From Luteimonas saliphila (GTDB taxonomy: Bacteria; Pseudomonadota; Gammaproteobacteria; Xanthomonadales; Xanthomonadaceae), in contig NZ_JAETWA010000026.1 of assembly GCF_016774335.1 (NCBI RefSeq), positions 149,900 through 213,899 of the forward strand: a DNA stretch of 64,000 nucleotides, written 5' to 3'. The notes under the pieces are model-generated. The model saw only the letters and a program-made list of their open reading frames with translations. It did not search any database and was not told where the DNA came from. Position 1 is the stretch's first letter, and the number at the start of each line of letters is the position of its first letter. A program made the position numbers and the translations under genes. Positions 34,318 through 55,960 of the stretch are shown piece by piece.

Positions 34318-34514
34318 GAATGTGCACCATACCCGGTCTGCGCCGACGAAGCTTGTTGCACAGCACAAGCGGGATCGCGCGTCCGGGAGGCTGGCGAATG
34401 GCACCGCAAGGCAAGGCGGCGGGCGACCCGTGCATGTCTATTCCAGGCCCCGGGACCGGGAACGACGGCGCTCTGGCAGAATCCGCAGGCTTCGCGGACA
34501 GGACCGGCAGACCC

Positions 34515-39066: not shown

Positions 39067-39097
39067 GGGCCGGTGGATCGCCACTGGCCCGTTCCTT
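39067..39097 (+). terminator. Weak terminator-like hairpin after TBDR2
   Basis: A 10-bp stem with one G-U pair (39067-39076 with 39081-39090), an ATCG loop and the imperfect U-rich tail GTTCCTTT. It is probably a partial terminator that lowers expression of the SapC genes relative to the receptor. Confidence 0.5.
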
Positions 39098-39163: not shown

Positions 39164-39880
39164 ATGAGTCAACACGTCCTGCTCAACAATGTCGACCACC
39201 GCGGGCTGCGGGTGCGTACCGGACATGGCGCGCACCTCGGCGACGCGGTGATGTGCGCGCTGACGTTCCCCGACGAGTTCCGCAACGTCCAGGCGCACTA
39301 CCCGATCGTATTCCGCCGCGATGCGGCCGGCGGCTTCCAGCCGCTGGCGCTGTTCGGGCTGCGCGAGGGCAGCAACCTGTTCCTGGACGGCGATCGCTGG
39401 GATGCGGCATACATCCCCCTGTCGATGCAGCGTCATCCCTTCCTGATCGGCATCTCGGGTGGGGAGCGGCTGGTCCACGTCGATCTCGCGCACCCGCGCG
39501 TCTGCCAGGCCAGCGAGGACGACGGGGAAGCACTGTTCGTCGCGCACGGCGGCACCACCGCATTGCTGGATCGGGCGAGTGCGGTCCTGCTCGCGTTGCA
39601 CGATGGCATCGTCGCGACGCCGGCCTTCTTCGATTCGCTGGAGCAACATGCCTTGCTGGAGCCGTTCGTACTGGACGTGCGCCTCGACGATGGCACGGAA
39701 CACCGCCTGGCCGGGTTCCACACCCTCGACGAGGACCGCCTGCAGGCGCTGGACGGCGCGGCGCTGGAGCAGCTCTCGCGGGACGGACACCTGCTGCCGA
39801 TCTACATGGTGATCGCCTCGGTGTCGCGCTTGCGCGACCTCATCGATCGCACCAACCGGCGCCATGCTGACGGCCGCTGA
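39164..39880 (+). CDS. SapC family protein 1
   Basis: A 238-residue SapC-like protein. Typical features are NVDHRGLRVRTGHGA near the start, FPDEFRNVQAHYPIVFRRD, and NLFLDGDRWDAAYIP. The family is named for a Campylobacter S-layer gene, but its biochemical function is unknown. No signal peptide is visible. It recurs in Xanthomonadaceae and Caulobacter downstream of sugar TBDRs, together with the cupin-like and halogenase-like genes found here. It overlaps the cupin gene by 17 bases, which indicates coupled translation. Confidence 0.9.
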   Translation: MSQHVLLNNVDHRGLRVRTGHGAHLGDAVMCALTFPDEFRNVQAHYPIVFRRDAAGGFQPLALFGLREGSNLFLDGDRWDAAYIPLSMQRHPFLIGISGGERLVHVDLAHPRVCQASEDDGEALFVAHGGTTALLDRASAVLLALHDGIVATPAFFDSLEQHALLEPFVLDVRLDDGTEHRLAGFHTLDEDRLQALDGAALEQLSRDGHLLPIYMVIASVSRLRDLIDRTNRRHADGR

Positions 39881-40880
39881 GCCCATCGCCGAGGTCGCGG
39901 GCGCGGATCCAGGCGCGCTTTCCGACGATTTGCTGCATGGCCATCGCCCCGCGGTCCTGCGTGGCCTGGCCCGCGATTGGCCACTGGTGCGCGCCGGTCG
40001 CGCGTCGCCGGGTGCGGCGATCGACTACCTCAAGCGCTTCGACCACGGCACGATGCCGGTCGCGGCCACGGTGGCGCCACCGGAGGCCGGCGGGCGCGTG
40101 TTCTACAACGCCGACATGACGGACTTCAATTTCCGTCGCGAGCAGGTGCCGCTTGCGGTCGCGCTGGATACGCTGCGCAAGTACGCCGACGTCGCGGCGC
40201 CGCCGGCGATCTACGTCGCCTCGACCACGATCGATACCTTCCTGCCCGGCTTCCGCGCCGAGAACGATATCGCCCTGCACGGACGCGACCCGCTGGCCAG
40301 CATCTGGATCGGCAATCGCACCCGCATCGCCGCGCACCAGGACCTGCCGCACAACCTCGCCTGCGTCGCGGTCGGGCGCCGGCGGGTGACGCTGTTCCCG
40401 CCCGACCAGCTCGCCAACCTCTATGTCGGTCCGCTCGATTTCACGCCCGCCGGTCAGCCGGTGAGCCTGGTCGATTTCGCCGCGCCAGACCTCGCACGCT
40501 TCCCGCGCTTCGCCGAAGCGATGCGGCACGCGCAGGTCGCCGAACTCGGACCCGGCGACGCGGTCTTCATCCCGAGCATGTGGTGGCACCACATGGAGGC
40601 GCTTGAGTCGTTCAACGTGCTGGTCAACTACTGGTGGCGCGACGTGCCGGCTTGGATGGACACGCCGATGAACACGCTGATGTACGCGATCATGACCCTG
40701 CGCGAGCTGCCGCCGGAGCAGCGCGAGACCTGGCAGGAAGTGTTCCGTCATTACGTATTCGAACCGGGCGAAGCGACCGCCGGGCACATTCCCGAACATG
40801 CGCGGCGCGTGCTGGACCCGCTCGACGAATCCCGCGCCCGCGACCTGCGCGCGCGCCTGTTGCAACGACTGAACCGCTGA
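39864..40880 (+). CDS. Cupin-like (JmjC/Cupin_8) protein 1, candidate Fe(II)/2OG oxygenase
   Basis: A 338-residue cytoplasmic protein. The cupin metal motif H-x-D is HQD in IAAHQDLPHNLACV, and a distal His lies in IPSMWWHHMEALESFNVLVNYWW. GRRRVTLFPPDQ between them is typical of FIH-like hydroxylases. The family is often annotated 'cupin-like domain'; some literature uses 'Pass1-related'. The substrate is unknown; a protein or small-molecule hydroxylase is plausible. It lies between SapC1 (17-base overlap) and halogenase 1 (10-base gap). Confidence 0.87.
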   Translation: MLTAAEPIAEVAGADPGALSDDLLHGHRPAVLRGLARDWPLVRAGRASPGAAIDYLKRFDHGTMPVAATVAPPEAGGRVFYNADMTDFNFRREQVPLAVALDTLRKYADVAAPPAIYVASTTIDTFLPGFRAENDIALHGRDPLASIWIGNRTRIAAHQDLPHNLACVAVGRRRVTLFPPDQLANLYVGPLDFTPAGQPVSLVDFAAPDLARFPRFAEAMRHAQVAELGPGDAVFIPSMWWHHMEALESFNVLVNYWWRDVPAWMDTPMNTLMYAIMTLRELPPEQRETWQEVFRHYVFEPGEATAGHIPEHARRVLDPLDESRARDLRARLLQRLNR

Positions 40881-40890
40881 GGAGCACACC

Positions 40891-42414
40891 GTGGGCGGCG
40901 AGACGAACGATTTTCCCGCAAGCCAGGTCCGCCGCGTGGTGATCGCCGGCGGCGGCACCGCCGGCTGGATGGCGGCGGCGGCGCTGTCGCGCACCCTGGG
41001 CAAGGTGCTCGACATCACCCTGGTCGAGTCCGAGGAAATCGGCACCGTCGGCGTGGGCGAGGCGACGATCCCGACCCTGGTCACCTTCCACCGCCTGCTC
41101 GACATCAAGGAGCCCGAGTACATGGCCGCGGTGCAGGGCACGGTCAAGCTCGGCATCTCGTTCGAGAACTGGCTCGACATCGGCCACCGCTACATCCATT
41201 CGTTCGGCACCAGCGGCAAGGACCACTGGTCGGCCGGGTTCCAGCACTTCTGGCTGCGCGGTCGCGAGCTGGGCATCGCCAGCGGATACGAGGACTACTG
41301 CGTCGAACTGCAGGCCGGCCTGCACGACAGGTTCGCGCACCTGCCCAACAACGGCATCAACTACGCCTACCACATGGACGCGGCGCTGTATGCGCGCTAC
41401 CTGCGCCGTTTCAGCGAGGGATTCGGCGTGCGCCGCGTCGAGGGCAGGATCGTCGAGGTCGAGACGGATCCGGGCTCCGGCTTCATCACCGCGCTGAAGC
41501 TCGAGAAAGGATCGACGATCGAGGGCGACCTGTTCATCGACTGCACCGGCTTCCGCGCGCTGCTGATCGGGCAGGCGCTGGGCGTGGGCTACGAGGACTG
41601 GTCGCACTGGCTGTTCAACGACAGCGCGCTGGCTACGCAGACCACCGCGGTGCGCGATGCGGTGCCCTACACGCGCGCGATCGCGGGCGACGCCGGCTGG
41701 CAGTGGCGGATCCCGCTGCAGCACCGGGTCGGCAACGGCATCGTCTATTCCAGCCGCCATCTCGACGATGAAGAGGCGAAGGCACAGTTCCTGTCCAGCG
41801 TCGAGGGCGAGATCATCAAGCAGCCGTGGCCGGTGCGGTTCCGGCCCGGCCAGCGCCACCGCTGCTGGGAACGCAACTGCATCGCCCTGGGCCTAGCCGG
41901 CAGCTTCATCGAGCCGCTGGAATCGACCACGATCCACCTGATCCAGCGCGGCATCGTGCGCCTGTTGCAGTCGTTTCCGCAGCAGGTGACCCGGGTCGCG
42001 ATCGACGAGTACAACGCGCGCCTGGACGAGGAGATCCAGCACGTGCGCGATTTTGTTGTCCTGCATTACCACCTGAGCAACCGGCGCGACACGCCGTACT
42101 GGCGCGAGATCGCGGAGATGGAGATCCCGGCGACGCTGCGCCACCGGATCGAGCTGTTCCGCGAGACCGGCATCGTCTTCCACGTGCCGGGCGAACTGTT
42201 CTGGGAGAACTCCTGGGTACAGGTGATGCTCGGGCAGGGCGTCGTGCCACGTCGCCACCATCCCACCGCGGACGTCATGCAGCCCGAAGACCTCAGGCGC
42301 TTCCTCGACGACATCCGCACCCGGGTCCTGGGCACCGCCCGGCAGTTGCCCGCGCACATGGACTACATGCGCAGCTACGCCCCGGCGCAGCGTCCGTCGA
42401 CCGGGCCAGCCTAG
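40891..42414 (+). CDS. Flavin-dependent tryptophan-halogenase-like protein 1
   Basis: A 507-residue halogenase homologue. FAD site GGGTAGW (residues 20-26), catalytic-lysine equivalent Lys86 in TVKLGISFENW, signature WQWRIP (270-275), and Glu344 in EPLESTTIHL, where the PrnA-type glutamate and chloride loop lie. The Gly after Thr in PrnA is Thr347 here, a difference in the halide pocket. It starts at GTG with GAGGAG upstream. Third gene of the SapC1 module. Its TAG shares the CTAG tetranucleotide with the stop of the convergent antiporter. Xanthomonas relatives have been reported to prefer bromination. Confidence 0.9.
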   Translation: MGGETNDFPASQVRRVVIAGGGTAGWMAAAALSRTLGKVLDITLVESEEIGTVGVGEATIPTLVTFHRLLDIKEPEYMAAVQGTVKLGISFENWLDIGHRYIHSFGTSGKDHWSAGFQHFWLRGRELGIASGYEDYCVELQAGLHDRFAHLPNNGINYAYHMDAALYARYLRRFSEGFGVRRVEGRIVEVETDPGSGFITALKLEKGSTIEGDLFIDCTGFRALLIGQALGVGYEDWSHWLFNDSALATQTTAVRDAVPYTRAIAGDAGWQWRIPLQHRVGNGIVYSSRHLDDEEAKAQFLSSVEGEIIKQPWPVRFRPGQRHRCWERNCIALGLAGSFIEPLESTTIHLIQRGIVRLLQSFPQQVTRVAIDEYNARLDEEIQHVRDFVVLHYHLSNRRDTPYWREIAEMEIPATLRHRIELFRETGIVFHVPGELFWENSWVQVMLGQGVVPRRHHPTADVMQPEDLRRFLDDIRTRVLGTARQLPAHMDYMRSYAPAQRPSTGPA

Positions 42415-43649
42415 GCCGAGCCGCGACGCAGGCCGCTTCCCCGGTCCCCCGTGGACACCTGCATCAGCGCCCGCAGCTTCGGCGTCACCATGGGAAGCGT
42501 CAGCATCGTGCTCGCGACCGCCATCAGCAGCAGCGCGGTGAAGGTTTCGCTGGTGATGATCCGCTTGTCGAGCAGGATGTTGGCGAAGATGATCATGATC
42601 AGGGCCTTGGTCTGCAGTAGCCAGCCGATGATCGAGGCTTCGCCCGGATTCCAGCCGAGCATGCGCCCGGCCATGCGCACGCCGGCCAGCTTGCCGGCGA
42701 CCGAGGCGAACAGCAGGGCGCCAGCGGCCAGGAAGACCGCGCTGCCACCGACGTCCCATGACGTGCGCAATCCGGTGCTGAGGAAGAACACCGGCATCAC
42801 CACCAGCAGCACGTGGTGGCGCAGCAGGTCCATCGCTTCCTGCTCGAACCATTCCGCGTCCATCACCACGCCGGCGAGGAACGCGCCGACCATGAAGTGC
42901 AGGCCGGCCCAGTCGGCGCCGAAAGCGCAGATCGCGAGCCAGACCAGCATCACGTACCAGCGGTCGCGCGCCGGGATGGCGCGCATGAGCCTGCGGAACG
43001 CGATGCAGGCCAGGCCGAACGCGAGGAGGAACGCCGCCTGCCGACCGATGCGTTCCCAGTCCATCAGCACCAGGGCCAGCACGCCCCAGATCGCGATGTC
43101 GTCCAGGCTGGCGTAGCGCAGGATGCGCTGGCCCATCGGCGCGCGCAGGATGTCGAGCTTCTCCATGAGCAGGATCAGGATCGGCAGCGCGGTCACCGCG
43201 CAGGCCATGCCGACGCCGACGACGAACTGCCAGGGCAGGCCCTCGCTGCCGATCCAGCCGTCGAAACCAAGCATGCCCATCGCCACCGCGGCGCCTGCCG
43301 CCAGGGGAACGCCGAGTGCGAGTCCCGCGGTCACGCCGGTTTCGCGGCGGTTCTCCCAGGCCTTGCGCACGTCCAGCTCGACGCCCGCGATCATCACGAA
43401 CAGCATCACGGCCCACCACGCCACGCCGTTGAGCGCGGTGATCACGTCGGGGTTGAACACCGTCGCGTGCAGCTCCGGCAACGCCTTGCCGAGCACGCCG
43501 GGCCCCAGCAGGATGCCGGCGATGATCTGCACCACCACCAGTGGTGCCCAGTAGTCGGTGCGGCACAGGCGCCACACCAGGTAGGGCACGGCGAAGATGA
43601 TCGCCATCGCGATCAGGAACAGTTCGGTGGTCGTGATCGCGTGCTGCAT
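42411..43649 (-). CDS. CPA2-type cation:proton antiporter
   Basis: A 412-residue membrane protein with about 12 hydrophobic helices and the Na+/H+ exchanger (KefB/NhaS-like) layout: VVVQIIAGILLGPGVLG at helix 2, ELDVRKAWENRR after helix 3, and PVFFLSTGLRTS before the C-terminal helices. No RCK/TrkA domain is attached. It follows the sugar transporter by 25 bases on the same strand, so it is probably co-transcribed with it and subject to the same operator. The ion is unknown. Confidence 0.88.
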   Translation of the reverse strand: MQHAITTTELFLIAMAIIFAVPYLVWRLCRTDYWAPLVVVQIIAGILLGPGVLGKALPELHATVFNPDVITALNGVAWWAVMLFVMIAGVELDVRKAWENRRETGVTAGLALGVPLAAGAAVAMGMLGFDGWIGSEGLPWQFVVGVGMACAVTALPILILLMEKLDILRAPMGQRILRYASLDDIAIWGVLALVLMDWERIGRQAAFLLAFGLACIAFRRLMRAIPARDRWYVMLVWLAICAFGADWAGLHFMVGAFLAGVVMDAEWFEQEAMDLLRHHVLLVVMPVFFLSTGLRTSWDVGGSAVFLAAGALLFASVAGKLAGVRMAGRMLGWNPGEASIIGWLLQTKALIMIIFANILLDKRIITSETFTALLLMAVASTMLTLPMVTPKLRALMQVSTGDRGSGLRRGSA

Positions 43650-43674
43650 CGTGCGGCGGGTGGGACAGGGGGCG

Positions 43675-45123
43675 TCAGTGTCCTGCCTGCGCCGTCAGCC
43701 TGTCGAGGTCGATGCCCTGCCGGCGCAGGATCCCGGGCGCGCGCGCGGCGTAGAGCGCGAGGTAGGCGAAGCACACCACACCGACCACGAAGCTCATGTG
43801 GATGCTGGTCACGTCGGCCAGCCAGCCCTGCAGCCAGCTGACGACGCCGCCGCCCATGATCATCATGATCAGCAGGCTACTGCCCTGGTTGGTGTTGCGC
43901 CCCAGGCCGGTGATCGCCAGGGCGAAGATGCAGGGCCACATCGTGCTGCAGAACAGGCCGACGCTGATGAAGGCGACGATGCTGGCCTTGCCGCTGGTGA
44001 ACATGCCGATCAGCAGCGCGGCGATGCCGCACAGCGAGAAGATCAGCAGCATGCGCGCCGGGTTGCCGCGGCTGGCGAAGGTCGCGCCGATCATCAGCAC
44101 GATCACCAGCGAGTAGCCCAGGAACTGGGTGATCTCGTGCCGGGCGATCGCATTCACCGCCAGGAACACGCCGAATGCGACATAGGGCAGCAGGACCGTG
44201 AGCATCCGCCGGGCGTTCATGCCGACCTCGAACGCACCGGCCGCGCCGGCCCAGCGCCCGATCATCAGGCTCGCCCAGTACAGTGACACGTAGGGCGCGA
44301 GCTGGGACGTCGGGATGCCGAGGTCTTCCTCGAGGTAGGCGGGAAGGTTGGCGATGGTCGAGACCTCGACGCCCACATAGAGGAAGATCGCCACCATGCC
44401 CAGCACCAGTTGCGGATAGGCGAATGCGGACTTCTTGTGGACCAGCTTGTTCGCGTCCTCGGCCTCGTCCTCGGCCAGCGCGTCGAGGTCGATATGGTTG
44501 GGCACCGGCGAGAACTTCAGGAACACCGCCACCAGCACGAACGCCGCGCCCAGCACCAGGTAGGGCGTCTTGACGCTCTCGATGCTGGCCTCGGTGCCGC
44601 CCGCCATCACGCTGCCGAAGATCGCGAAGCTGACCAGCAGCGGGCCGATGGTAGTGCCGAAGTTGTTGACGCCGCCGGCCAGCGTCAGTCGCTGCGCGCC
44701 GGTGGCCGGATTGCCCATCACGATCGCCAGCGGGTTGGCTGCGATCTGCTGCAGCGAAAAGCCCAGTCCGACGATGAACAGCCCCGACAGCATCAGCCCG
44801 AACGATCCTGCGTTCGCGGCCGGGTAGAACAGCAGCGAGCCCATCGCCGAGATCAGCAACCCCAGGCAGATGCCGTTCTTGTAGCCGATTCGGTTGAGCA
44901 CATCGGCGCCGATCAGGCGCGAGGTGAAGAAGTAGACCAGCGAGCCGACGGTATAGGCGACGTAGAAGGCCAGCGCCACGTACATGCTCTGCTGCTGCGA
45001 CAGGTGGAACGCGTTCTTGAAGACCGGGATCAGGATGTCGTTGCTGGCGGCGACGAAGCCCCAGAAGAAGAACACGGTGACCAGCACAGCGAACTGGGAC
45101 CAACGGGTCTGGTGGGTGGTCAT
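43675..45123 (-). CDS. Sugar:H+ symporter, FucP/GluP-type MFS
   Basis: A 482-residue MFS protein with 12 helices. FFFWGFVAASNDILIPVFK at the start and GFSLQQIAANPLAIVMGNP match the FHS family (FucP, GlcP, NagP). A charged loop between helices 6 and 7 (DALAEDEAEDANKLVHKK) is usual. It should import a monosaccharide or disaccharide from the periplasm after GH3 action. A perfect LacI palindrome (operator D) lies 156 bases upstream, tying it to the regulon. It is divergent from the YqhA-like gene. Confidence 0.9.
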   Translation of the reverse strand: MTTHQTRWSQFAVLVTVFFFWGFVAASNDILIPVFKNAFHLSQQQSMYVALAFYVAYTVGSLVYFFTSRLIGADVLNRIGYKNGICLGLLISAMGSLLFYPAANAGSFGLMLSGLFIVGLGFSLQQIAANPLAIVMGNPATGAQRLTLAGGVNNFGTTIGPLLVSFAIFGSVMAGGTEASIESVKTPYLVLGAAFVLVAVFLKFSPVPNHIDLDALAEDEAEDANKLVHKKSAFAYPQLVLGMVAIFLYVGVEVSTIANLPAYLEEDLGIPTSQLAPYVSLYWASLMIGRWAGAAGAFEVGMNARRMLTVLLPYVAFGVFLAVNAIARHEITQFLGYSLVIVLMIGATFASRGNPARMLLIFSLCGIAALLIGMFTSGKASIVAFISVGLFCSTMWPCIFALAITGLGRNTNQGSSLLIMMIMGGGVVSWLQGWLADVTSIHMSFVVGVVCFAYLALYAARAPGILRRQGIDLDRLTAQAGH

Positions 45124-45278
45124 GGGCCTGCCGTATGCGAAGTGGGGATCCGGTGAACAAGTGGCGGCGGCCGGGAAGTCCCGACCGCCGCCGGCCCCGC
45201 GCGGACGGCGGCCTGCGACCCGCCTCTCCTCGCGTCGCGGCGCCGAACCCCGGTGCAGGGACGCTTGTACAGGGGTCG

Positions 45279-45292
45279 TGACAACGTTGTCA
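45279..45292. promoter_or_regulatory. LacI-type operator D (TGACAACGTTGTCA)
   Basis: A perfect 14-bp palindrome, the best match to the consensus of the four sites. On the minus strand it is preceded by TT to give TTGACA, a -35 box pointing to the MFS gene, though no good -10 lies at 17 bases. It stands in the 351-bp divergent region (45124-45474), in which I see nothing else of note. Confidence 0.75.
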
Positions 45293-45474
45293 AATTTCCC
45301 CTGCGGCGCGGTCATCCGCGTGTGCAACCCGATCAATCTCCGGCGTTTTGTTTGCGACGCAGCATCGGTCCTGCGCTGCCCCGGGACGGCGCCCGTACTC
45401 GCGCCGACGCGGTCCGCTTGGCAGCCCGGCGACGCCTCGCTAACCTCCGCGCTCCGCCAGCCGCAGCGATCCCG

Positions 45475-46128
45475 ATGCCCCCGACCGCCAATCCCGCCCC
45501 GCGCCTGCCGCCGCTCGCCTACGTGATCTTCGGGTCGCGCTGGCTGCAGTTGCCGCTCTATCTCGGCCTGATCGTGGCGCAGGGCGTCTACGTGTTCCTG
45601 TTCGTCAAGGAACTGTGGCATCTGGTGCACGGTGCCAACAGCCTCACCGAACAGGGCATCATGCTGCTGGTGCTGGGCCTGATCGACGTGGTGATGATCT
45701 CCAACCTGCTGGTGATGGTGATCGTCGGCGGCTACGAAACCTTCGTCTCGCGCCTGGGCCTGCAGAACCACCCCGACCAGCCGGAATGGCTGAGCCACGT
45801 CAACGCCAGCGTGCTCAAGGTGAAGCTGGCGATGGCGATCATCGGCATCTCCTCGATCCACCTGCTCAAGACCTTCATCGCCGCCGGCGAGGTGGGATTG
45901 CCGGTATGCGGCAGCACGGAGTACATCGCGGCCATGGTCACCCATGCCGGGGCCGTCGCCGAGGGACTGGCACTGGCCGAACCGATCTGCACCAAGGTCA
46001 CTTCCGCCGGGGTGATGTGGCAGTCGATCATCCATGGCGCCTTCATCCTGTCGGCGATCGGTATCGCTTACACCGACAAGCTGATGACCGGCAGCAGCGC
46101 CAAACGCGAGCACGCGGGCGCGCACTGA
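45475..46128 (+). CDS. UPF0114/YqhA-like membrane protein (TIGR00645)
   Basis: A 217-residue protein with four hydrophobic helices. [20 protein letters not shown] opens helix 1 and [19 protein letters not shown] marks helix 3; the C-terminal stretch [16 protein letters not shown] is conserved in the family. Function is unknown. It is divergent from the MFS transporter and has no visible link to sugar use. Confidence 0.88.
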
Positions 46129-46782: not shown

Positions 46783-49700
46783 ATGAACCACAAGTTGAAA
46801 GGTTTGAAGTCGAAGGCGATGTTCACCTTCGTCGGGGGCATGCTGGTCATCAACCCCGCATTCGCGCAGGATCCTGCGCCGCAGCAACCCGCAACGCAGC
46901 AGACGCAGGCCGCCACGGACGATGCGTCCACGCTCGACACGGTCGTCGTCACCGGCCTGCGCAACAGCCTCGAGAACTCGATGGGGATCAAGCGCGACAC
47001 CTCCGGTGTCGTCGATGCGATCAGCGCCGAGGACATCGGCAAGTTCCCGGACACCAACCTGGCCGAGTCGCTGCAGCGCATCACCGGCATCTCGATCGAA
47101 CGCCGCAACGGCGAAGGCGCGCAGATCACCGCGCGTGGCTTCGGCCCCGGCTACAACATGGTCACGCTCAACGGCCGCCAGATCCCGGGCGCGGACGCGT
47201 TCGGCAACGGCGACTCCGTCATCGGCGGTACCGGCGCCGGCACCCGCGGCTTCAACTTCGCCCAACTCGCATCGGAAGCAGTGAGCGGAATCACGGTCTA
47301 CAAGACCGGCCGCGCCGACGTTCCGAGTGGCGGCATCGGCGCCACGGTCGACATCCTGACCAACCGGCCGCTGAACCTCCCCGCGGGCCTGACGCTCAAC
47401 GCTGGCCTCAAGGCCGGTTCCGACCAGTCGCAGGTCATCGGCGACAGCATCACACCGGAAATGTCGTCGATCATCAGCTTCGCCAGCGACGACAAGCGCT
47501 GGGGCGCCAGCCTGAGCACCAGCTTCCAGCAGCGCAAGGGCGGCGACATCCAGGCGACCGAGAACGAATGGCGCGTGCAGCGCTGGAACGGCGCGCCGTC
47601 GGGTTGGGGCAACCGGGTCGAGGTCGTGAACGCGCCGACGGCAGGCTCGCTGTACGCGATGCCCGCGGACCTGCGTTACGCGTTCTCGAACTTCGAGCGC
47701 CAGCGCGTCAATGCCCAGGGCGTGCTGCAGTTCGCACCGACCGATGCGGTCACCCTGACCCTCGACTACACCCATTCGTCCAATGAGATCTCCGAGGACC
47801 GCGGCGAGATGACGCAGTGGCTCCAGCAGGGACCGTTCACGCGCATCGAGTTCGACACCAACGGCCCGGTCGCTACGCCGACTTACATCCGCGAGATCGT
47901 GGAAACCAAGGACTTCGGCTACGAGCAGCAACGCAACGAGCAGAAGTACAAGCTCGACTCGATCGGCTTCAACGCCACCTGGCAGGTGACCGACCGCTTC
48001 AGTCTGGAATTCGACGGCCACAGCACCAAGAACAAGAGCCTGCCCAACGACCCGATCACGGGCGCCAGCTCGACGGCGTTCTCGTTCGCCGGCACCAGCG
48101 CCTGCCAGTCGGCCGGTGGCCCGTACTGCGGCGGCAACTGGGCGCAGGAATACTGGTTCAACACCGGCCTTCCGATCATGGCCCGGACCTGGTATCCGGA
48201 ATCGCCGAATTCGGACGACGCGTTCAACAACGTCAACGGTGTGGTGAATCCGGCGTTCCCGCCGGAGCAGGTGGGCACACAGATCCAGCGCATCTGGTAC
48301 TCGCGCCAGGACAGCAAGATCGAGCAGGGCCGGATCGACGGTGCGTTCGACTTCGACAATGGGCGCTTGTCGTTCGGCGTCGATTCGTCGAAGGTGTCGA
48401 TGCGTCGTCTGACCTCGAACGACAATCAGCAGGTGCTCGGCAACTGGAGCGTCGACAACGTCGGCGAGGAGCCCGGGTTCCAGAACCTGATCCGCCCGAT
48501 CAACATCGCGGGCCTGTTCGACGACTTCAGCACCAATGGCGCCCCGCAGAATGCGTGGTGGGGGAACGCCAGTCAGCTGGCGGCGTGGGCCACCGGCTTC
48601 TATGGCACCCCGTCGAACTTCAACGGCCAGTACAACAACGACAACCTGATCGAGGAGAAGACCAGCGCCGCCTATGTGCAGTACGAGTTCGACGGCGAAC
48701 TGGGCTCCATGCCGTTCAACCTCGTGCTGGGTGCACGGTACGAGCAGACCGATCTGACGTCCGTGTCGTCCCTGCAGGTACCGCAGTCGATCAACTGGAA
48801 CGGCGACAATGACTTTGCCATCACCCCGTCCGCCGAGCAGCAGCCGTTCGCGGAGGAGGCCGAATACAATTACTGGCTGCCGAACCTCGATTTCAGCATG
48901 GACTTCACCAACAGCCTGAAGGGCCGCGTTTCGCTCAGCCGGACGATCGCGCGCGCGCCTTATGGCAACCTCTACTCCGGCCCGACCGCCAACGCGCCCA
49001 ACGGCTCGGTTCTGCTTGGCTTCCGTGCAACCGGCAACGCGCAGAATCCGCGCCTGCTGCCACTGGAATCCGACAACCTCGACGTGGCGCTGGAGTGGTA
49101 CTTCGCCCCGGCCAGCTACATCTCGCTCACGTACTTCGACAAGCGCGTGAACAACTTCATCGGCAACAGCCAGGTGCAGGAGAACCTGTACGGCCTGCGT
49201 GACCCCACCGGCGGGCCGGACGCCCAGGCCGCGCTCGCGTTCCTCAACAGCCCCGAGTGCGACGCGCAGGTCGCCGCAAACGGCGGTGGTGGCGTGAACG
49301 CTTGCCTTGACAATCCGGTGGCTCTGTTCACCGCGATTGCCCTCCTGCGTAACGCCGATGCAACCGGCGGTCTCGCGGCCTACACCGGCACCCAGACCCA
49401 GTTCGAGCAGATGGAACAGCTCGTGCGCCAGCCGGGTCGCGCGATCATCGGCGAGCCCGACGACCCGCTGTACATGTTCAACGTCAACCGCCCGCTCAAC
49501 CAGCAGAAGGCCAAGATCGACGGCTTCGAGCTGGGCAGCCAGTACTTCTTCGGCGACAGCGGCTTCGGCATCCAGGTCAACTACACCAAGGTCAACGGGG
49601 ATGTCGGGATCGATGATGGAGCGGCACCTGGCGTCAACCAGTTCGCGCTGACCGGGCTGAGCGACACCGCCAACGCCGTCTTCATGTACGAGAAGTACGG

Positions 49701-49968
49701 CTGGACCGCGCGACTGGCCTGGAACTGGCGTGACGAGTACCTGTTCGCGGCCAACCAGCAGGCGGCGACCAACCCGTTCTACGTCGAGGAATACCAGCAG
49801 TGGGATCTGAGCATCACCAAGCAGCTGGACGACAACTGGGCGGTGGGCTTCGAGGCGATCAACCTGACGGGCGAGGATGTCCGCTGGCGTTCGCGCAACG
49901 AACTCCAGATGGTGCGGCTGGTTGACCAGAGCCCGCGCTACATGGCAGCGATCCGCTACACCTTCTGA
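46783..49968 (+). CDS. TonB-dependent receptor 3 (carbohydrate type)
   Basis: A 1061-residue receptor. The signal peptide ends NPAFAQ. The plug contains LDTVVVTGLRNSLENS, AEDIGKFPDTNLAESLQRIT and TARGFGPGYNMVTLNGRQ; the barrel ends SPRYMAAIRYTF. It belongs to the same subfamily as TBDR2. Inserts rich in Cys/Gly (SACQSAGGPYCGGNW and PECDAQVAANGGGG) are likely extracellular loops. A strong terminator follows at 50007-50036, so the receptor is largely a single transcript. A SapC-cupin-halogenase set follows, as after TBDR2. Confidence 0.94.
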   Translation: MNHKLKGLKSKAMFTFVGGMLVINPAFAQDPAPQQPATQQTQAATDDASTLDTVVVTGLRNSLENSMGIKRDTSGVVDAISAEDIGKFPDTNLAESLQRITGISIERRNGEGAQITARGFGPGYNMVTLNGRQIPGADAFGNGDSVIGGTGAGTRGFNFAQLASEAVSGITVYKTGRADVPSGGIGATVDILTNRPLNLPAGLTLNAGLKAGSDQSQVIGDSITPEMSSIISFASDDKRWGASLSTSFQQRKGGDIQATENEWRVQRWNGAPSGWGNRVEVVNAPTAGSLYAMPADLRYAFSNFERQRVNAQGVLQFAPTDAVTLTLDYTHSSNEISEDRGEMTQWLQQGPFTRIEFDTNGPVATPTYIREIVETKDFGYEQQRNEQKYKLDSIGFNATWQVTDRFSLEFDGHSTKNKSLPNDPITGASSTAFSFAGTSACQSAGGPYCGGNWAQEYWFNTGLPIMARTWYPESPNSDDAFNNVNGVVNPAFPPEQVGTQIQRIWYSRQDSKIEQGRIDGAFDFDNGRLSFGVDSSKVSMRRLTSNDNQQVLGNWSVDNVGEEPGFQNLIRPINIAGLFDDFSTNGAPQNAWWGNASQLAAWATGFYGTPSNFNGQYNNDNLIEEKTSAAYVQYEFDGELGSMPFNLVLGARYEQTDLTSVSSLQVPQSINWNGDNDFAITPSAEQQPFAEEAEYNYWLPNLDFSMDFTNSLKGRVSLSRTIARAPYGNLYSGPTANAPNGSVLLGFRATGNAQNPRLLPLESDNLDVALEWYFAPASYISLTYFDKRVNNFIGNSQVQENLYGLRDPTGGPDAQAALAFLNSPECDAQVAANGGGGVNACLDNPVALFTAIALLRNADATGGLAAYTGTQTQFEQMEQLVRQPGRAIIGEPDDPLYMFNVNRPLNQQKAKIDGFELGSQYFFGDSGFGIQVNYTKVNGDVGIDDGAAPGVNQFALTGLSDTANAVFMYEKYGWTARLAWNWRDEYLFAANQQAATNPFYVEEYQQWDLSITKQLDDNWAVGFEAINLTGEDVRWRSRNELQMVRLVDQSPRYMAAIRYTF

Positions 49969-50006
49969 CGCCGAACCTCTCCAAGGCCCAGATGGTGTGA
50001 AGGGTG

Positions 50007-50036
50007 GGGCCGCTGCGCGCGCAGCGGCCCTTTTTT
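50007..50036 (+). terminator. Rho-independent terminator after TBDR3
   Basis: A perfect 10-bp stem (GGGCCGCTGC with GCAGCGGCCC), a GCGC loop and six T residues, 38 bases after the receptor stop. Confidence 0.92.
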
Positions 50037-50168
50037 ATGAGTCTCACGTGCCTCGATTTCCGCATGCGGGACGGGCATGATGGGCGTGAGCCGCGGCTTG
50101 CACGGCGCGATGCCACTTCAATTCACGGGCGCGCCGGAACACCCGCTGCGACCGCTGCCGGGACCGAC

Positions 50169-50924
50169 ATGGCGCGATACGAACTGCTCGACAACGTAGC
50201 CCACAAGGACCTGCGCGTGGTCACGCGCTTCGGCGCAGGGGTGGCCGATCCCGCCGGCCTGGTCCCCGCCTGGCCGACCGAATTCGCCGAACTGCAGCGC
50301 GAATACCCGATCTTCCTGCGCAAGGAGGAGGGCGGTGACGGCTTTCACGCCGTCGCCCTGCTGGGCTTCGACGCCGGCGAGAACCTGTACCTGGACGGCG
50401 AGCGCTGGAACGCCACCTACCTGCCCGGCGCCATCGCGCGCGGCCCGTTCCTGATCGGTTTTCAGGAGCAGATGCAGGACGGGGCGCTGCGGCACGAACC
50501 GGTGATCCATGTCGACCTCGATCACCCGCGCGTCTCGCGCGACGGGCAAGGAGTGGCCGTGTTCCTGCCCAAGGGCGGCCACAGCCCCTACCTCGAACAC
50601 GTGATCACGGTGCTCAAGGGCATCCACGACGGCACCGAAGCGGGCCGCGCGATGTACGCATCGCTCGACGCGCTCGGGCTGATCCAGCCGCTGGAGCTGG
50701 ACCTGCGCTTCGACGACGCCCATGGCGCGCGCCTCACCGGCCTGCATGGCGTCGATCGCGAGCGCCTGGCCGCGCTGGATGCGGAGCAGTTGCACGGCCT
50801 GCACCGCGCCGGGCTGCTCGAGGGCGTGTACCTGATGCTGTCCTCGCTCTACAACATGCGCCACCTGATCGCGGAGAAGCAGCGGCGGCTGCGGGCGCAG
50901 GCCGAGGCGGAACGGGCCGGCTGA
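50169..50924 (+). CDS. SapC family protein 2
   Basis: A 251-residue SapC-like protein starting MARYELLDNVAHKDLRV. It shares PTEFAELQREYPIFLRK, ENLYLDGERWNATYLPG and VIHVDLDHPRVS with SapC1 and is clearly a paralogue. The open frame extends in frame to an ATG at 50037, directly after the terminator, but that stretch looks non-coding. It opens a second module: cupin 2 follows after five bases. The separate transcript needs its own promoter in 50037-50168, which I could not identify. Confidence 0.9.
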   Translation: MARYELLDNVAHKDLRVVTRFGAGVADPAGLVPAWPTEFAELQREYPIFLRKEEGGDGFHAVALLGFDAGENLYLDGERWNATYLPGAIARGPFLIGFQEQMQDGALRHEPVIHVDLDHPRVSRDGQGVAVFLPKGGHSPYLEHVITVLKGIHDGTEAGRAMYASLDALGLIQPLELDLRFDDAHGARLTGLHGVDRERLAALDAEQLHGLHRAGLLEGVYLMLSSLYNMRHLIAEKQRRLRAQAEAERAG

Positions 50925-50929
50925 CCGCG

Positions 50930-51952
50930 ATGGCCGGATCGCCCGCCCCGGTGCGCGAACTCGACGGCTGCCGTGCCGACGCGCTGCCGCTGCAGGCGCT
51001 GCTGGAGGGCGGCGAACCGGTGCTGCTGAAGGGCATCGCCGCCGACTGGAGCCTGGTCGAGGCCGGCCGGGAATCGCCGCAGGCGGCGATGGCGCACCTG
51101 CTAGCGCATTACAACGGCCGGCCGCTGCCCTACTCGTGGGGCCCGCCGGAGACGGCCGGGCGTCCGTTCTACACCGCCGATTTCACCCGGCTCAACACGC
51201 AGGCGCTGCGCGGCACGCTGGACGCGGTGCTGGACGAGATCGCCGCGCACCTGGACGATCCGCAGCCACCGACCCATTACGTGGCCTCGGTGCCGGTCGA
51301 CAGCGTGCTGCCGGGCCTGCGCGCGCGCAACGATTTGGATTTCGCCGCGCACGGTGTCGACGCCCCGCCGGCGATCTGGATCGGCAACCGTATCACCGCC
51401 TCCTGCCACTACGACGCGCCGGACAATATCGCCTGCTGCGCGGTCGGCCGGCGCCGCTTCACCCTGTTCCCGCCGGGGCAGATCCACAGCCTCTATCCGG
51501 GACCGCTGGATCCCACGCCGGGCGGCCAGGCGGTGAGCGTGGTCGACTTCGACGCGCCGGACTTCGAGCGTTATCCGCGCTTCCGCGAGGCGCTCGGGCA
51601 CGCGCGCAGCGTGCTGCTGGAACCCGGGGATGCGATCTTCATCCCCAGCATGTGGTGGCACCACGTGCAGGGGCTGGAACCGTTCAACGTGCTGGTCAAT
51701 TACTGGTGGAGCAGCATGCCGGCGTGGATCCCCACCCCGATGCACGCGCTCTACCACGCCATGTGGTCGATCCGCGACCGGCCCGAGCGCGAGAAACAGG
51801 CCTGGCGCGAGGTGTTCGACCATTATGTCTTCGGCCCCGCGGAGCGCGCGGGCGAACACCTGCCGGAGCCGGCGCGCAAGGCGCTGGCGCCGATCGACGA
51901 GAGCATGGCGCGCCAGCTGCGCGCCTGGCTGATCGCCAGGCTCAATCGCTGA
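50930..51952 (+). CDS. Cupin-like (JmjC/Cupin_8) protein 2, candidate Fe(II)/2OG oxygenase
   Basis: A 340-residue paralogue of cupin 1. The metal motif is HYD in ITASCHYDAPDNIACC, with distal His in IPSMWWHHVQGLEPFNVLVNYWW and the shared GRRRFTLFPPGQ. The two cupins keep the same HxD...H metal set, so both should bind iron. It is placed between SapC2 and halogenase 2 with short gaps. The substrate is unknown. Confidence 0.88.
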   Translation: MAGSPAPVRELDGCRADALPLQALLEGGEPVLLKGIAADWSLVEAGRESPQAAMAHLLAHYNGRPLPYSWGPPETAGRPFYTADFTRLNTQALRGTLDAVLDEIAAHLDDPQPPTHYVASVPVDSVLPGLRARNDLDFAAHGVDAPPAIWIGNRITASCHYDAPDNIACCAVGRRRFTLFPPGQIHSLYPGPLDPTPGGQAVSVVDFDAPDFERYPRFREALGHARSVLLEPGDAIFIPSMWWHHVQGLEPFNVLVNYWWSSMPAWIPTPMHALYHAMWSIRDRPEREKQAWREVFDHYVFGPAERAGEHLPEPARKALAPIDESMARQLRAWLIARLNR

Positions 51953-51972
51953 GCTGCGCGCCGGGAGGGCAC

Positions 51973-53553
51973 ATGGGGACATCGAGGGTGCGCAAGGTGG
52001 TCATCGTCGGGGGTGGGACCGCCGGCTGGCTGGCCGCCGCCGTGTTGGCCCACCAGTTCCGCGACCTGCTGGAGATCACCCTGGTCGAGTCCGAGCAGAT
52101 CGGCACGATCGGCGTCGGCGAATCCACGATTCCGCCGATCCGGCGCCTGCACCAGCTGCTGCAGATCGACGAACGCGAGTTCATGCGCGCCACGTCGGCC
52201 AGCTTCAAGCTGTCGATTTCGTTCGAGGACTGGCTGCGGCCGGGCCGGCAGTTCTTCCATCCCTTCGGATTCACCGGGATGGGGACCTGGGCATGCGAGT
52301 TCCACCATTTCTGGCTGGCCGCGCAGAGCCGGGGCATTCAGACCGCGCTCGCCGAATTCAGCCTGGAGGCGGTGGCTTCGCGCGAACGGCGCTTCCTGCT
52401 GTCCGGACAGCGCGAAGCCGGCGCGGGCGAATGGACGACACGCTTGGCGCGCTCGTCGGGCCAGGCCGAGCTGACCTATGCCTACCACCTGGACGCCGGC
52501 CTGTATGCGCGTTTCCTGCGGCGCTTCGCGGAAGGTTTCGGGCTGCGGCGTGTCGAGGGTCGGATCGCCGAGGTGGCGTTGCACCCGGAGTCGGGCTTCG
52601 TCGAATCGCTGCGGCTCGACGATGGACGCAGCATCGATGGCGACCTGTTCATCGATTGCAGCGGTTTCAGGGGGCTACTGATCGAGCAGGCGCTCCAGAC
52701 CGGCTACGAGGACTGGACCCACTGGCTTCCCTGCGACCGCGCGGTGGCGCTGCAGACCCGGCTCGAAGGGCCTGCGGTGCCGTACACGCGCGCGATCGCG
52801 CACGAAGCCGGGTGGCGCTGGCAGATTCCGCTCCAGCACCGCATCGGCAACGGCTGGGTGTATTCGAGCCGGCACATGTCCGACGACGAGGCGCGCCGGC
52901 GCCTGCTGCGCGAAGCCAGCGGAACGCCGGTCCGCGATCCGGTGGTCGTGCCGTTCACGACCGGCCGGCGGCGCCTGGCGTGGAACCGGAACGTGGTGGC
53001 GATGGGCCTGTCGAGCGGCTTCGTCGAACCGCTGGAATCGACCAGCATCCACATGATCGCCGCCGCCGCGGTGCGCCTGGTGCAGATGTTCCCGATGGAA
53101 GGGATCGCCCCGGAGATGGTCGAGCGCTACAACGCCATCAGCCGCCACGAGATGGAGGACGTGCGCGACTTCATCATCCTGCACTACCACGCCAATGCAC
53201 GCGACGAGCCGCTGTGGCGCGAGTGCCGGGAGATGGTGGTGCCCGATTCGCTGGCGGAGCGCATCGCGCTGTTCCGCGAGCGCGCCCATGTCTGGCAGGA
53301 CGAGGGCGACCTGTTCCGGACGGACTCCTGGCTGCACGTGATGCTGGGGCAGGGCATCGCACCGCGCCAGTTCCATCCGCTCGCGCTGGCGCTGCCCGAA
53401 AACGAGATCCGGCGCCTGTTCGATGCGGTGCGCCAGCCGATCCGCAGTGCGGTGCAGGCGATGCCGCCGCATCCGGAGTTTGTCCGCCACTACTGCCCCG
53501 CGGATGCGTCGGTGTGGCCGGCGCCAGCAGCGCCCACGAAGGTGGACGCATGA
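51973..53553 (+). CDS. Flavin-dependent tryptophan-halogenase-like protein 2
   Basis: A 526-residue halogenase homologue. FAD motif GGGTAGW (13-19), Lys79 in SFKLSISFEDW at the position of PrnA Lys79, signature WRWQIP (281-286), and Glu355 in EPLESTSIHM. The residue after Thr357 is Ser where PrnA has Gly. HHFWLAAQS and NAISRHEMEDVRDFIILHYHA are family features. GGGAGGGC precedes the ATG. It is followed 60 bases later by a closely related paralogue, so the pair arose by tandem duplication. All catalytic residues are present. Confidence 0.9.
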   Translation: MGTSRVRKVVIVGGGTAGWLAAAVLAHQFRDLLEITLVESEQIGTIGVGESTIPPIRRLHQLLQIDEREFMRATSASFKLSISFEDWLRPGRQFFHPFGFTGMGTWACEFHHFWLAAQSRGIQTALAEFSLEAVASRERRFLLSGQREAGAGEWTTRLARSSGQAELTYAYHLDAGLYARFLRRFAEGFGLRRVEGRIAEVALHPESGFVESLRLDDGRSIDGDLFIDCSGFRGLLIEQALQTGYEDWTHWLPCDRAVALQTRLEGPAVPYTRAIAHEAGWRWQIPLQHRIGNGWVYSSRHMSDDEARRRLLREASGTPVRDPVVVPFTTGRRRLAWNRNVVAMGLSSGFVEPLESTSIHMIAAAAVRLVQMFPMEGIAPEMVERYNAISRHEMEDVRDFIILHYHANARDEPLWRECREMVVPDSLAERIALFRERAHVWQDEGDLFRTDSWLHVMLGQGIAPRQFHPLALALPENEIRRLFDAVRQPIRSAVQAMPPHPEFVRHYCPADASVWPAPAAPTKVDA

Positions 53554-53613
53554 GGCGCGTGGCGTTCCGCCGCGGCGCAGAAGCAGCAGAGCATTGACCA
53601 GGGAGAGGAAGCG

Positions 53614-55254
53614 TTGGACGAAGTGAAGCGCGGGATCCGCAAGGTGGTGATCGCCGGTGGCGGCACGGCGGGCTGGGTGGCGGCGTGCGCGCTGACCCAC
53701 CAGTTCCGCGACCTGCTCGAGGTGACCCTGGTGGAGTCCGAACAGATCGGCACCGTGGGCGTGGGCGAATCGACGATCCCCACCATCCGCACCTTCCACC
53801 GCCTGCTCGGGATCGACGAGCGCGAGTTCATGAGTTCGGTGGCCGCGAGCTTCAAGCTCTCGATCTCGTTCGAAAACTGGCTGCGCCCCGGGCAACGCTA
53901 TATCCATCCCTTCGGCCTGACCGGGCTGGGCACCTGGGCCTGCGAGTTCCACCACTTCTGGCTCGACAGCCTGCGCCGCGGCATGACCTCCGAACTGGGC
54001 GACTTCTGCCTGGAGACGGTGGCCTCGCGGGTGGACCGTTTTTCTCTGCCGGGCCACCAAGTGGGCGGCGCGCAGCAGTGGTCGACGCGCTGGACGAACC
54101 AGGGCATGGCACCGGAGCGGCTGGAGGTCAACTATGCCTACCACTTCGATGCCGGGCTCTACGCGGCATACATGCGCGAGCGCGCCGAGCGCCAGGGCTT
54201 GGTGCGCATCGAGGGCAAGATCCAGCAGGTGCGCCAGCACCCGGGGACCGGCTACGTCGAGGCGCTGGTGCTGGAGAACGGCACCGTGCTGGAAGGCGAC
54301 CTGTTCATCGACTGCACCGGCGGCCGCGCGGTGCTCAGCGAGCAGGCGCTGGGCACCGGCTACGAGGACTGGAACCACTGGCTGCCGAGCAACCGGGCGG
54401 TGGCGCTGCAGACCGAGGCCGACGGCCCGGCGGTGCCCTACACCCGCGCCATCGCGCACGAGGCCGGCTGGCACTGGAAGATCGCGCTGCAGCACCGGAT
54501 CGGCTGCGGCATCGTGTTCTCCGACGCGCACATGTCCGACGACGCGGCGACCGCCAGGCTGCTCGCCGAGAATCCCGCGAAACCACTCCGCGACCCCTGG
54601 ATCATCCCGTTCCGCACCGGGCGCCGGCGCAAGGCCTGGAACAAGAACGTGATCGCGCTGGGCCTGGCCAGCGGCTTCATTGAGCCGCTGGAGTCGACCA
54701 GCATCCACCTCACCCTGAGCGGGGTGGCGCGGCTGCTGAAGCTGTTCCCGGCCGACGGCATCGACGAGTCGATGGTGCAGCGCTACAACGACATCAGCCG
54801 CGCCGAGATGGAGCACGTGCGCGACTTCATCATCCTGCACTACCACCTCAACCAGCGCGACGAACCGATGTGGCGACAGGTGCGGCACATGGAACTGCCG
54901 GCCGACCTCGCCCACCGCATTCAGATGTTCCGCGACCGCGCGCACGTGCTGCAGGGCGAGGACGAGCTGTTCCGGATCGATTCGTGGACCCACTGCATGC
55001 TGGGCCAGGGCGTGGTGCCCACGACGCACCATCCGCTGACCCGCGCGCTGCCCGACGATGCGATGCAGCGCCTGTTCGACGGCATCCGCCAGCCTATCGA
55101 GCGCACGGTGGCGGCGATGCCGAGCCACCAGCAGTTCCTCGACAGCTACTGCAAGGCACCGCCCTCGGCCTGGGAACTGATGTACGAAAGGGCGCGCGCG
55201 CATGCGCGGGTGACCGGCACGATCGCGGGCGTGGACGGCGGGCTGGCCCGGTGA
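53614..55254 (+). CDS. Flavin-dependent tryptophan-halogenase-like protein 3 (altered signature)
   Basis: A 546-residue paralogue of halogenase 2. GGGTAGW (15-21), Lys81 in SFKLSISFENW and Glu360 in EPLESTSIHL are kept, but the WxWxIP signature reads WHWKIA (286-291), with Ala replacing Pro. The start is TTG at 53614 with a strong GGGAGAGG site eight bases upstream, and no better start exists. Overall conservation suggests function rather than decay; it may be a subfunctionalised enzyme. It is followed after seven bases by the DUF6445 gene. Confidence 0.88.
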   Translation: MDEVKRGIRKVVIAGGGTAGWVAACALTHQFRDLLEVTLVESEQIGTVGVGESTIPTIRTFHRLLGIDEREFMSSVAASFKLSISFENWLRPGQRYIHPFGLTGLGTWACEFHHFWLDSLRRGMTSELGDFCLETVASRVDRFSLPGHQVGGAQQWSTRWTNQGMAPERLEVNYAYHFDAGLYAAYMRERAERQGLVRIEGKIQQVRQHPGTGYVEALVLENGTVLEGDLFIDCTGGRAVLSEQALGTGYEDWNHWLPSNRAVALQTEADGPAVPYTRAIAHEAGWHWKIALQHRIGCGIVFSDAHMSDDAATARLLAENPAKPLRDPWIIPFRTGRRRKAWNKNVIALGLASGFIEPLESTSIHLTLSGVARLLKLFPADGIDESMVQRYNDISRAEMEHVRDFIILHYHLNQRDEPMWRQVRHMELPADLAHRIQMFRDRAHVLQGEDELFRIDSWTHCMLGQGVVPTTHHPLTRALPDDAMQRLFDGIRQPIERTVAAMPSHQQFLDSYCKAPPSAWELMYERARAHARVTGTIAGVDGGLAR

Positions 55255-55261
55255 GACCGCG

Positions 55262-55960
55262 GTGCTGATCCAGACGCATCCCGGCCTGCGGCTGCAGGCG
55301 CGTCGTATCGGCGTCGAGGGCGCGCCGCTGCTGGTCATCGACCAGGCGGTGGCCGACCCCGACCGGCTGGTGCGCAAGGCCGCGCGCGGCCACTTCACCG
55401 CGCAGGGCGCGATGTTCCCCGGGCTGCGCATCCGCGCGCCGCTCTCATACGAGGTGTTCCTGGAGCAGCTGATCCGGCCGCTGCTGGCCGAGCATTTCGG
55501 CCTGCCGGCGAGGGCGCGCTTCGCCTTCCCCATGTGCCACTACTCGCTGGTCACCCTGCCGCCAGAGCGGCTGGCGTTCCTGCAGCGCGTTCCGCACATC
55601 GATTCTGTACAGGGCAACGGCTTGGCCACCGTGCACTACCTGTTCCGCGCCGACTGGGGCGGCACCGCGTTCTACCGCCACCGCGCGACCGGGTTCGAGT
55701 CGGTCGACGAGTCCCGCAGCCTGGCCTACTTCTCTGCGCTCGAGCAGGAGAGCGGGCGCGAGGATGCGACCGATGGCTACATCCGCGGCGATTCGCCGCT
55801 GTTCGAGCGTGTCGACGCGGTCGAAGGCGTGTTCAACCGCCTGGTCGTGTACCGGCGCAATTCACTGCATTCGGGCGACATCGACAATGCCCGCATCCCG
55901 CCCGCCGATGCGCTGACCGGGCGGCTGTCGATCAACAGTTTCATCGACGTCGTCGCCTGA
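55262..55960 (+). CDS. DUF6445 protein, predicted 2OG-Fe(II) oxygenase fold
   Basis: A 232-residue protein starting at GTG (55262). It shows a prolyl-hydroxylase-like metal set: H-x-D in VPHIDSVQGNGLATVHYLF, a distal His in NSLHSGDI, and a downstream Arg in LTGRLSINSFID that could bind 2-oxoglutarate. It is the last gene of the SapC2 module; homologues travel with SapC/halogenase genes. The family assignment is from memory, and the metal set is my reading of the sequence. The substrate is unknown. Confidence 0.75.
   Translation: MLIQTHPGLRLQARRIGVEGAPLLVIDQAVADPDRLVRKAARGHFTAQGAMFPGLRIRAPLSYEVFLEQLIRPLLAEHFGLPARARFAFPMCHYSLVTLPPERLAFLQRVPHIDSVQGNGLATVHYLFRADWGGTAFYRHRATGFESVDESRSLAYFSALEQESGREDATDGYIRGDSPLFERVDAVEGVFNRLVVYRRNSLHSGDIDNARIPPADALTGRLSINSFIDVVA

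Follow-up and report, generated by a model that had tools for sequence, protein, structure and literature searches.

The closest described relatives of the flavin halogenases treated here, Xcc4156 and BrvH, are orphan brominating enzymes: in the accessible portions of the two papers the native substrates of the Xcc enzymes and of BrvH are given as unknown, and Xcc4156 and BrvH both refuse free tryptophan (PMC7336383, PMC5945002). Xcc4156 has an open substrate site, for which its authors suggest larger substrates, possibly peptides (PMC7336383), and the idea of a peptide substrate for this group of halogenases is thus already in print (PMC7336383, PMC5945002). The terms 'TonB' and 'SapC' are absent from the accessible text of PMC5945002, as are 'TonB', 'SapC', 'receptor' and 'operon' from that of PMC7336383. 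A second point of comparison is offered by the CUT (carbohydrate utilisation) loci of Xanthomonas campestris, where TonB-dependent receptors (TBDRs) have regulator, glycosidase and transporter genes nearby, and whose description, in the part of its main text available to us, contains neither 'halogenase' nor 'SapC' (PMC1790865). Here we analyse a 64,000-nucleotide stretch of the Luteimonas saliphila genome (contig NZ_JAETWA010000026.1, positions 149,900 to 213,899; hereafter the window). Its halogenase hal1 is most similar in the PDB to Xcc4156 (6y1w, 745 bits), ahead of 9luq (530 bits) and BrvH (6frl, 452 bits), and shares with Xcc4156 and BrvH the aligned regions around WxWxIP and EP[LI]EST; in contrast to what is described for those enzymes, the halogenase genes of the window are placed in receptor-linked cassettes.

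The existence of the gene cassette is certain. A Pfam/NCBIfam profile scan of the window proteins resolved two modules, both on the forward strand. Module 1 consists of the receptor TBDR2 (36048..39026; the open reading frame (ORF) opens with GTG at 36021, but ATG at 36048 is the likelier start), SapC1 (39164..39880), a Cupin_8 protein, i.e. a JmjC-type 2-oxoglutarate (2OG) oxygenase (cupin1, 39864..40880; PF13621, 233 bits), and hal1 (40891..42414; PF04820, 617 bits). Module 2 comprises TBDR3 (46783..49968), SapC2 (50169..50924), a second Cupin_8 protein (50930..51952; PF13621, 228 bits), the halogenases hal2 (51973..53553; 631 bits) and hal3 (53614..55254; 603 bits), and a DUF6445 protein (55262..55960; PF20043, 260 bits), behind which lies a UvrD-type helicase gene. 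Since SapC homology begins only at residue 62 of ORF 50004-50924 (match over residues 62-288), ATG 50169 is a likelier SapC2 start than 50004. These matches bear out the two-module gene order and the coordinates proposed in the initial annotation. Of the short spacings it described, the 17-base overlap of SapC1 and cupin1 and the 5-, 20- and 7-base gaps of module 2 stand, but the receptor genes are set apart from SapC by 137 bases in module 1 and, with the revised start, by about 200 in module 2. Paralogous proteins of the two modules are only 36% (TBDRs), 40% (SapC) and 51% (cupins) identical, and a recent tandem duplication was rejected on this ground; by their divergence the two modules are old paralogues. 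Among the halogenases hal2 and hal3 form the closest pair (63%, against 49% for hal1/hal2 and 50% for hal1/hal3). The profile scan found no nonribosomal peptide synthetase (NRPS), polyketide synthase (PKS) or precursor gene in the cassettes, the flanks not having been searched for short ORFs.

To what extent the arrangement is conserved was addressed by scanning a genome collection with SapC1, which yielded 72 SapC loci from other genomes, a sample biased towards close relatives of SapC1, whose layouts were scored with profiles built from the window proteins. The loci come from Luteimonas, Lysobacter, Pseudoxanthomonas, Xanthomonas, Roseateles and other Burkholderiales, Sphingomonas, Novosphingobium, Parvularculaceae, Aestuariibacter and many gammaproteobacterial metagenome-assembled genomes, and the cassette gene order is fixed across alpha-, beta- and gammaproteobacteria, with every scored element of a locus on one strand. 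With halA denoting the halogenase gene upstream of SapC and halB the one downstream, the commonest layout is TBDR-halA-SapC-Cupin_8-halB (44/72 loci); ten loci show TBDR-SapC-Cupin_8-hal, two more add a second TBDR further on, and the remaining 16 are contig-end fragments or single variants (among them DUF6445 present in L031, Cupin_8 lacking in L039 and L074, broken frames in L060, a split TBDR in L080). A same-strand TBDR precedes the cassette in 66 of the 72; among the six in which none was scored, the contig begins within the cassette or immediately ahead of it in L018, L035, L046, L050 and L084, and in L083 a TBDR fragment that scores below the threshold remains. Cupin_8 is missing from seven loci, five of which are cut by a contig end (L067, L075, L077, L079 and L083).

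In a sample of 40 genomes of the family, 22 encode a halogenase (E 1e-60) and 12 encode SapC, and none of the 12 is without a halogenase (Fisher p 1e-4). Of the 21 SapC genes, 19 have a halogenase on the same strand no more than 2.5 kb away; counted from the other side, 24 of the 52 halogenase places are within 3.6 kb of a SapC gene. At the level of the class (143 genomes) the co-occurrence is weak (3/21 SapC genomes, p 0.04), because 18 of the 20 class-level SapC stretches fetched wide (places L144-L146 being left out) are of a distant kind without the cassette. Chance adjacency, the outcome that by the initial annotation would have refuted its reading, was rejected: order and strand are kept, the gene trees agree, and nearly all family SapC genes have their halogenase close by. 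As to its statement that similar trios are known elsewhere, a full trio is present in Xanthomonas chitinilytica (L015); for Caulobacter (C. vibrioides) the analysis covered the presence of SapC, Cupin_8 and Trp_halogenase in the genome, and all three occur there.

The receptor behaves like any other gene of the unit. Across the 43 loci in which TBDR, SapC, Cupin_8, halA and halB are all present, pairwise tree distances correlate at 0.84-0.955, and the TBDR agrees with the enzymes (0.893-0.955) as the enzymes do among themselves (0.842-0.926); none of 500 permutations per pair reached the observed value, although these correlations carry no housekeeping control and partly reflect shared descent. 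The converse search, for receptors of the TBDR2 kind in 151 genomes of the order (E 1e-150, at most five candidates scored per genome), returned 22 rows representing 21 receptors of the TBDR2/TBDR3 kind in 19 genomes, the source genome included, and 20 of the 21 adjoin SapC, Cupin_8, a halogenase or DUF6445. The exception, in genome G169 of the same genus, is a TBDR2 homologue 58% identical at a syntenic locus that lacks the exchanger stretch; behind it no match of its own to SapC1, cupin1 or hal1 was found, and module 2 of this genome, 77-86% identical, contains a single halogenase, which is of the hal3 kind. When this locus (L262, C1:303000-322500) was compared with window positions 33300-57860, the TBDR2 homologue proved 64-90% identical over the first 200 aligned residues and 44-70% thereafter, a pattern that rapid divergence or exchange of the barrel could produce.

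Partial forms of the unit are also found. Five genomes of another genus carry a receptor-Cupin_8 pair with neither SapC nor halogenase adjacent; four of them have one halogenase elsewhere, and the fifth, G224, has none at E 1e-60. Parts are lost singly: Cupin_8 in L039 and L074, SapC and halogenase beside the five receptor-Cupin_8 pairs, and all but the halogenase beside other receptors, which is more readily explained by separate sites on a single polymer than by a pathway of successive steps. The linked receptors span different subfamilies, including TIGR01782 kinds and Oar-like ones. TBDR2 and TBDR3 pass TIGR01782 over their full length (648 and 725 bits, cut-off 310), and the AlphaFold2 (AF2) model of TBDR2 (mean confidence, pLDDT, 82.7) is matched by Foldseek to TonB-dependent receptors such as PirA, PfeA and FepA. 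The source genome encodes two SapC, two Cupin_8 and five full-length halogenases, as well as 15 receptors that exceed the TIGR01782 cut-off. Each of the five halogenases is preceded by a TBDR (hal3 with hal2 in between): the fourth (L115) follows a further TIGR01782 receptor and adjoins an N-acylglucosamine epimerase gene, and the fifth (L116) follows an Oar-like receptor with a CarboxypepD_reg domain.

The six enzymes with flavin or HxD iron motifs announced for the window do carry them. The halogenases hal1-3 match PF04820 over their full length and have GxGxxG, the catalytic Lys (Lys79 in hal2) and EPLEST; the WxWxIP motif reads WQWRIP in hal1 and WRWQIP in hal2, and hal3 departs from it with WHWKIA. 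Catalytic Lys and Glu are kept in all 171 aligned halogenase rows, a few of which are duplicate copies from the window. halB proteins have WxWxIP and EP[LI]EST in 64/64 rows, and halA proteins have WxWDI[GA] with EPLEAS or EPLESS in 55/56, the odd row being an extra gene in L035; the window holds hal1, of the halB clade, and two sisters. Because halA has lost the Pro and shows Ser-to-Ala beside the catalytic Glu, we suspect a different chemistry, perhaps hydroxylation. The HxD...H iron triad is present in both cupins (H158xD160...H242/243 in cupin1 and H160xD162...H244/245 in the second) and in DUF6445 (H112xD114...H203), which on this motif is a probable 2OG-Fe(II) oxygenase. The best PDB matches of cupin1 are to FIH, then JMJD5, then others including JMJD7, all three of which are protein hydroxylases; their iron-site region aligns with cupin1 (with FIH over residues 155-263 only), from which they differ in that cupin1 is bacterial and receptor-linked. 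DUF6445 also has a weak PHROG match to a 'minor coat protein' family (44 bits). Outside the window, DUF6445 lies between TBDR and halogenase in L031 and L265, which are full cassettes, and in L255 and L256; L222 and L227 show the order hal-DUF6445-TBDR.

SapC, named after a role in S-layers, is represented by two full-length PF07277 matches (SapC1, 216 bits; SapC2, 208 bits). The AF2 model of SapC1, built from 54 sequences, is confident (pLDDT 93.6); Foldseek found no fold match to it in the PDB (best E 0.11), and a sequence search found no solved homologue. The 18 class-level stretches without the cassette show SapC in other company: in ten of these distant loci (L157-L161, L163-L165, L169 and L173) it is preceded on the same strand by an ORF of 1000 residues or more, compared with 7 of 84 other ORFs of the loci (p 2e-5), three of the ten (L157, L158 and L165) being in DNA with a GC content of 66-69%, in which long ORFs arise by chance more often. 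The ORFs preceding SapC span 1200-3140 residues; those beside the distant SapC genes are rich in Gly, Thr and Asp and nearly Cys-free, and four that were scanned (in L160, L161 and L163, and one downstream of SapC in L159) gave no Pfam match. Secretion genes lie near SapC in L159 (OEP, HlyD) and in L165 and L166 (ShlB/POTRA). Judged from size, composition and these secretion genes, the long ORFs may encode surface proteins that are possibly exported. HMW1C and HlyC are cytosolic factors that modify giant exported proteins before secretion, and they would provide an analogy for a SapC acting with such proteins.

A cassette that travels with the same kind of receptor suggests that its enzymes modify the receptor or something tied to it. 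The most economical reading, which we hold tentatively and at somewhat less than even confidence, is that they oxidatively modify the co-encoded receptor precursor before export. The client would be the TonB-dependent receptor, an exported surface protein whose gene lies immediately upstream and whose precursor the enzymes would meet in the cytosol before Sec export. SapC may help to recognise or hold the precursor; Cupin_8, and DUF6445 where present, would hydroxylate one or more side chains, in the case of DUF6445 presumably; halB would halogenate Trp or Tyr, halA, with its WxWDIG/EPLEAS signature, perhaps hydroxylating; and the modified receptor would then be exported. The receptor is the most economical client since it accompanies the SapC cassette throughout, whatever the receptor subfamily and in the partial forms too; a polypeptide client is indicated by the open site of the halogenase, the hydroxylase family to which the cupins belong and the other company that SapC keeps. 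Gene spacing may be read in the same direction. Across 58 pairs, the gap from TBDR to the next gene has a median of 93-95 bases, with a folding energy of about -40 to -43 kcal/mol for the first 80 bases, as against median gaps of -14 (SapC/Cupin_8), 0 (hal/SapC) and +10 (Cupin_8/hal) with 80 bases folding at -21 to -31 kcal/mol, all of these being values with rule-assigned start codons and no shuffle control. The two longest GC-rich hairpins of the window sit in the TBDR-SapC gaps (39067..39090, forward strand, 10 pairs, between TBDR2 and SapC1; 50006..50031, forward strand, 11 pairs and a T-run, directly behind TBDR3); terminator-like sites in the region number six, not above shuffled sequence (mean 7.6). 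We read the spacing as high receptor and low enzyme expression, which would fit an abundant client and scarce enzymes. A more detailed version, a widespread proteobacterial system in which halB brominates and halA hydroxylates Trp or Tyr on the extracellular face of a sugar receptor before export, while SapC, a factor of new fold, recognises this client and giant surface proteins as well, must be called doubtful as a whole.

Several observations weigh against modification of the receptor. The 44 module receptors have seven near-invariant Trp, of which six are predicted to lie in extracellular loops or at strand ends (270, 281, 360, 536, 656 and 923, with topology read from the secondary-structure string of the TBDR2 model), but the extracellular side holds 11 of TBDR2's 17 Trp anyway, and at six of the seven positions Trp also occurs in 4 to 9 of 14 non-module receptors (12 from the source genome and two from L013/L014). 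In G169 the TBDR2 homologue, which no enzyme adjoins, retains 134 of the 135 near-invariant columns, and the receptor of G224, whose genome lacks a halogenase at E 1e-60, retains all 135; Trp 281, 360, 412, 536, 656 and 923 are present in both. Halogenation therefore does not maintain these six Trp. Their retention leaves receptor modification possible and removes its simplest sequence support. The original proposal is partly supported; its suggestion that the receptor, or something associated with it, is what the modules act on remains an inference, to which the residue test lent nothing. No signal peptide was recognisable by eye on the enzymes, whereas the receptor works in the outer membrane; crude hydropathy does not separate the halogenases from TBDR3. 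LodB, GoxB and QhpG are flavoproteins that mature protein-bound residues and embody the same idea, a flavin enzyme acting on a protein before export; the likeness is a weak sequence echo, and membership was rejected (18-31 bits against NCBIfam cut-offs of 240-400). The PDB matches of cupin1 also include C2orf60, the RNA hydroxylase TYW5. SapC-free halogenases, finally, account for 28 of the 52 places in the family, and among the 27 examined, some on short contigs, 11 share an apparent operon with a TBDR (nine with the receptor directly upstream on the same strand, two in the order hal-DUF6445-TBDR), in two more a TBDR adjoins on the opposite strand, and four of the rest adjoin starch genes (alpha-amylase, GH31, GH97, pullulanase; L220, L224, L228 and L229). 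Flavin enzymes of this kind are therefore found repeatedly in sugar loci that differ in their chemistry, whether or not a receptor is adjacent. A separate feature of the module receptors is a loop segment at TBDR2 residues 781-841 (window about 38361-38543), which contains a Cys pair as well as a conserved CIRxYIF and in which positions are gaps in 10-11 of the 14 contrast receptors.

The alternative that survives best, although unlikely, is that the enzymes act after uptake on an aromatic part of the imported ligand, such as a phenolic ester on an oligosaccharide, the receptor being an importer only. In its favour, part of the loci are flanked by LacI, glycoside hydrolase (GH3, GH16) and major facilitator superfamily (MFS) families. 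The families that recur in the flanks of the 72 loci, each labelled from a single representative, comprise LacI (27 loci), GH3 (22), GH16 (6), peptidase S9 (6), MFS (5) and EF-G (8), together with three families without a Pfam match (15, 8 and 5 loci) and one that was not scanned (5). These flanks, with a LacI-family regulator gene directly upstream of TBDR2, point to sugar uptake and support the sugar link made in the initial annotation, but sugars are not aromatic. The aromatic-ligand reading can also cite esterase domains in ORFs near two halogenases, in L220 and L226. No aromatic-catabolism family is found among the six recurrent families with a Pfam match, however, the cassette parts are lost singly, and the same kind of halogenase stands beside starch genes (GH13, GH31, GH97, pullulanase), starch having no aromatic group.

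That the cassette instead makes a halogenated or hydroxylated small molecule (a signal, chelator or antimicrobial), imported or exported by the receptor, is distinctly unlikely. Among characterised flavin halogenases, small-molecule substrates predominate. C3 of free indole is brominated by BrvH, but its low activity made its authors, in the accessible part of their paper, doubt indole as the natural substrate (PMC5945002). The cassettes, moreover, contain no NRPS, PKS or precursor gene, and their packed genes, in the enzyme-enzyme as in the TBDR gaps, leave little room for a precursor peptide. A client encoded elsewhere, i.e. another surface or periplasmic protein or peptide with which the receptor is only co-regulated, would agree with SapC following very long, possibly exported ORFs in other genomes; it is improbable in view of the tight receptor adjacency, the agreement of the trees and the lack of a flank family present in more than 27 of the 72 loci. 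The notion that the flavin and 2OG proteins are passengers of sugar loci, detoxifying or tuning metabolism beside an unmodified receptor, draws on the SapC-free halogenases without an adjacent TBDR, some of them in starch loci, and has little probability given the catalytic Lys and Glu kept in 171 of 171 rows and the gene order fixed in three proteobacterial classes.

The surroundings of the modules contain CUT-type components. The regulator beside TBDR2 (34500..35525, forward strand, start approximate) is the C-terminal part of ORF 33609-35525, with Pfam LacI and Peripla_BP_3 matches over residues 308-633; left of TBDR2 lie a GH30 glycosidase (29655-31226) and a further receptor with a Plug domain, and between the modules, on the other strand, a Na/H exchanger and an MFS transporter (43675-46125). 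Farther away, at 8249-9754 and 18214-19851 on the reverse strand, are two FAD_binding_3 flavoproteins with weak Trp_halogenase matches (98 and 61 bits), which could belong to an aryl-polyene (xanthomonadin-like) cluster.

Among the matches listed, the open-licence literature yielded no description of the cassette or of a pairing of its genes, although annotators have probably seen this neighbourhood. In the portions available, a Sphingomonas exopolysaccharide screen reports one tryptophan halogenase gene without context and without mention of 'SapC' (PMC11340318), and a metatranscriptome paper discusses phage and Colwellia halogenases, again without 'SapC' (PMC11337851). If the receptor is the client, the cassette would represent a new modification route for outer-membrane proteins, and would supply a natural substrate for the orphan brominating enzymes Xcc4156 and BrvH as well as a role for SapC. 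Even with a small-molecule client, the recurring TBDR-halA-SapC-Cupin_8-halB unit makes the orphan-halogenase question directly testable, since it names a receptor, a likely regulator, a sugar context and the genes.

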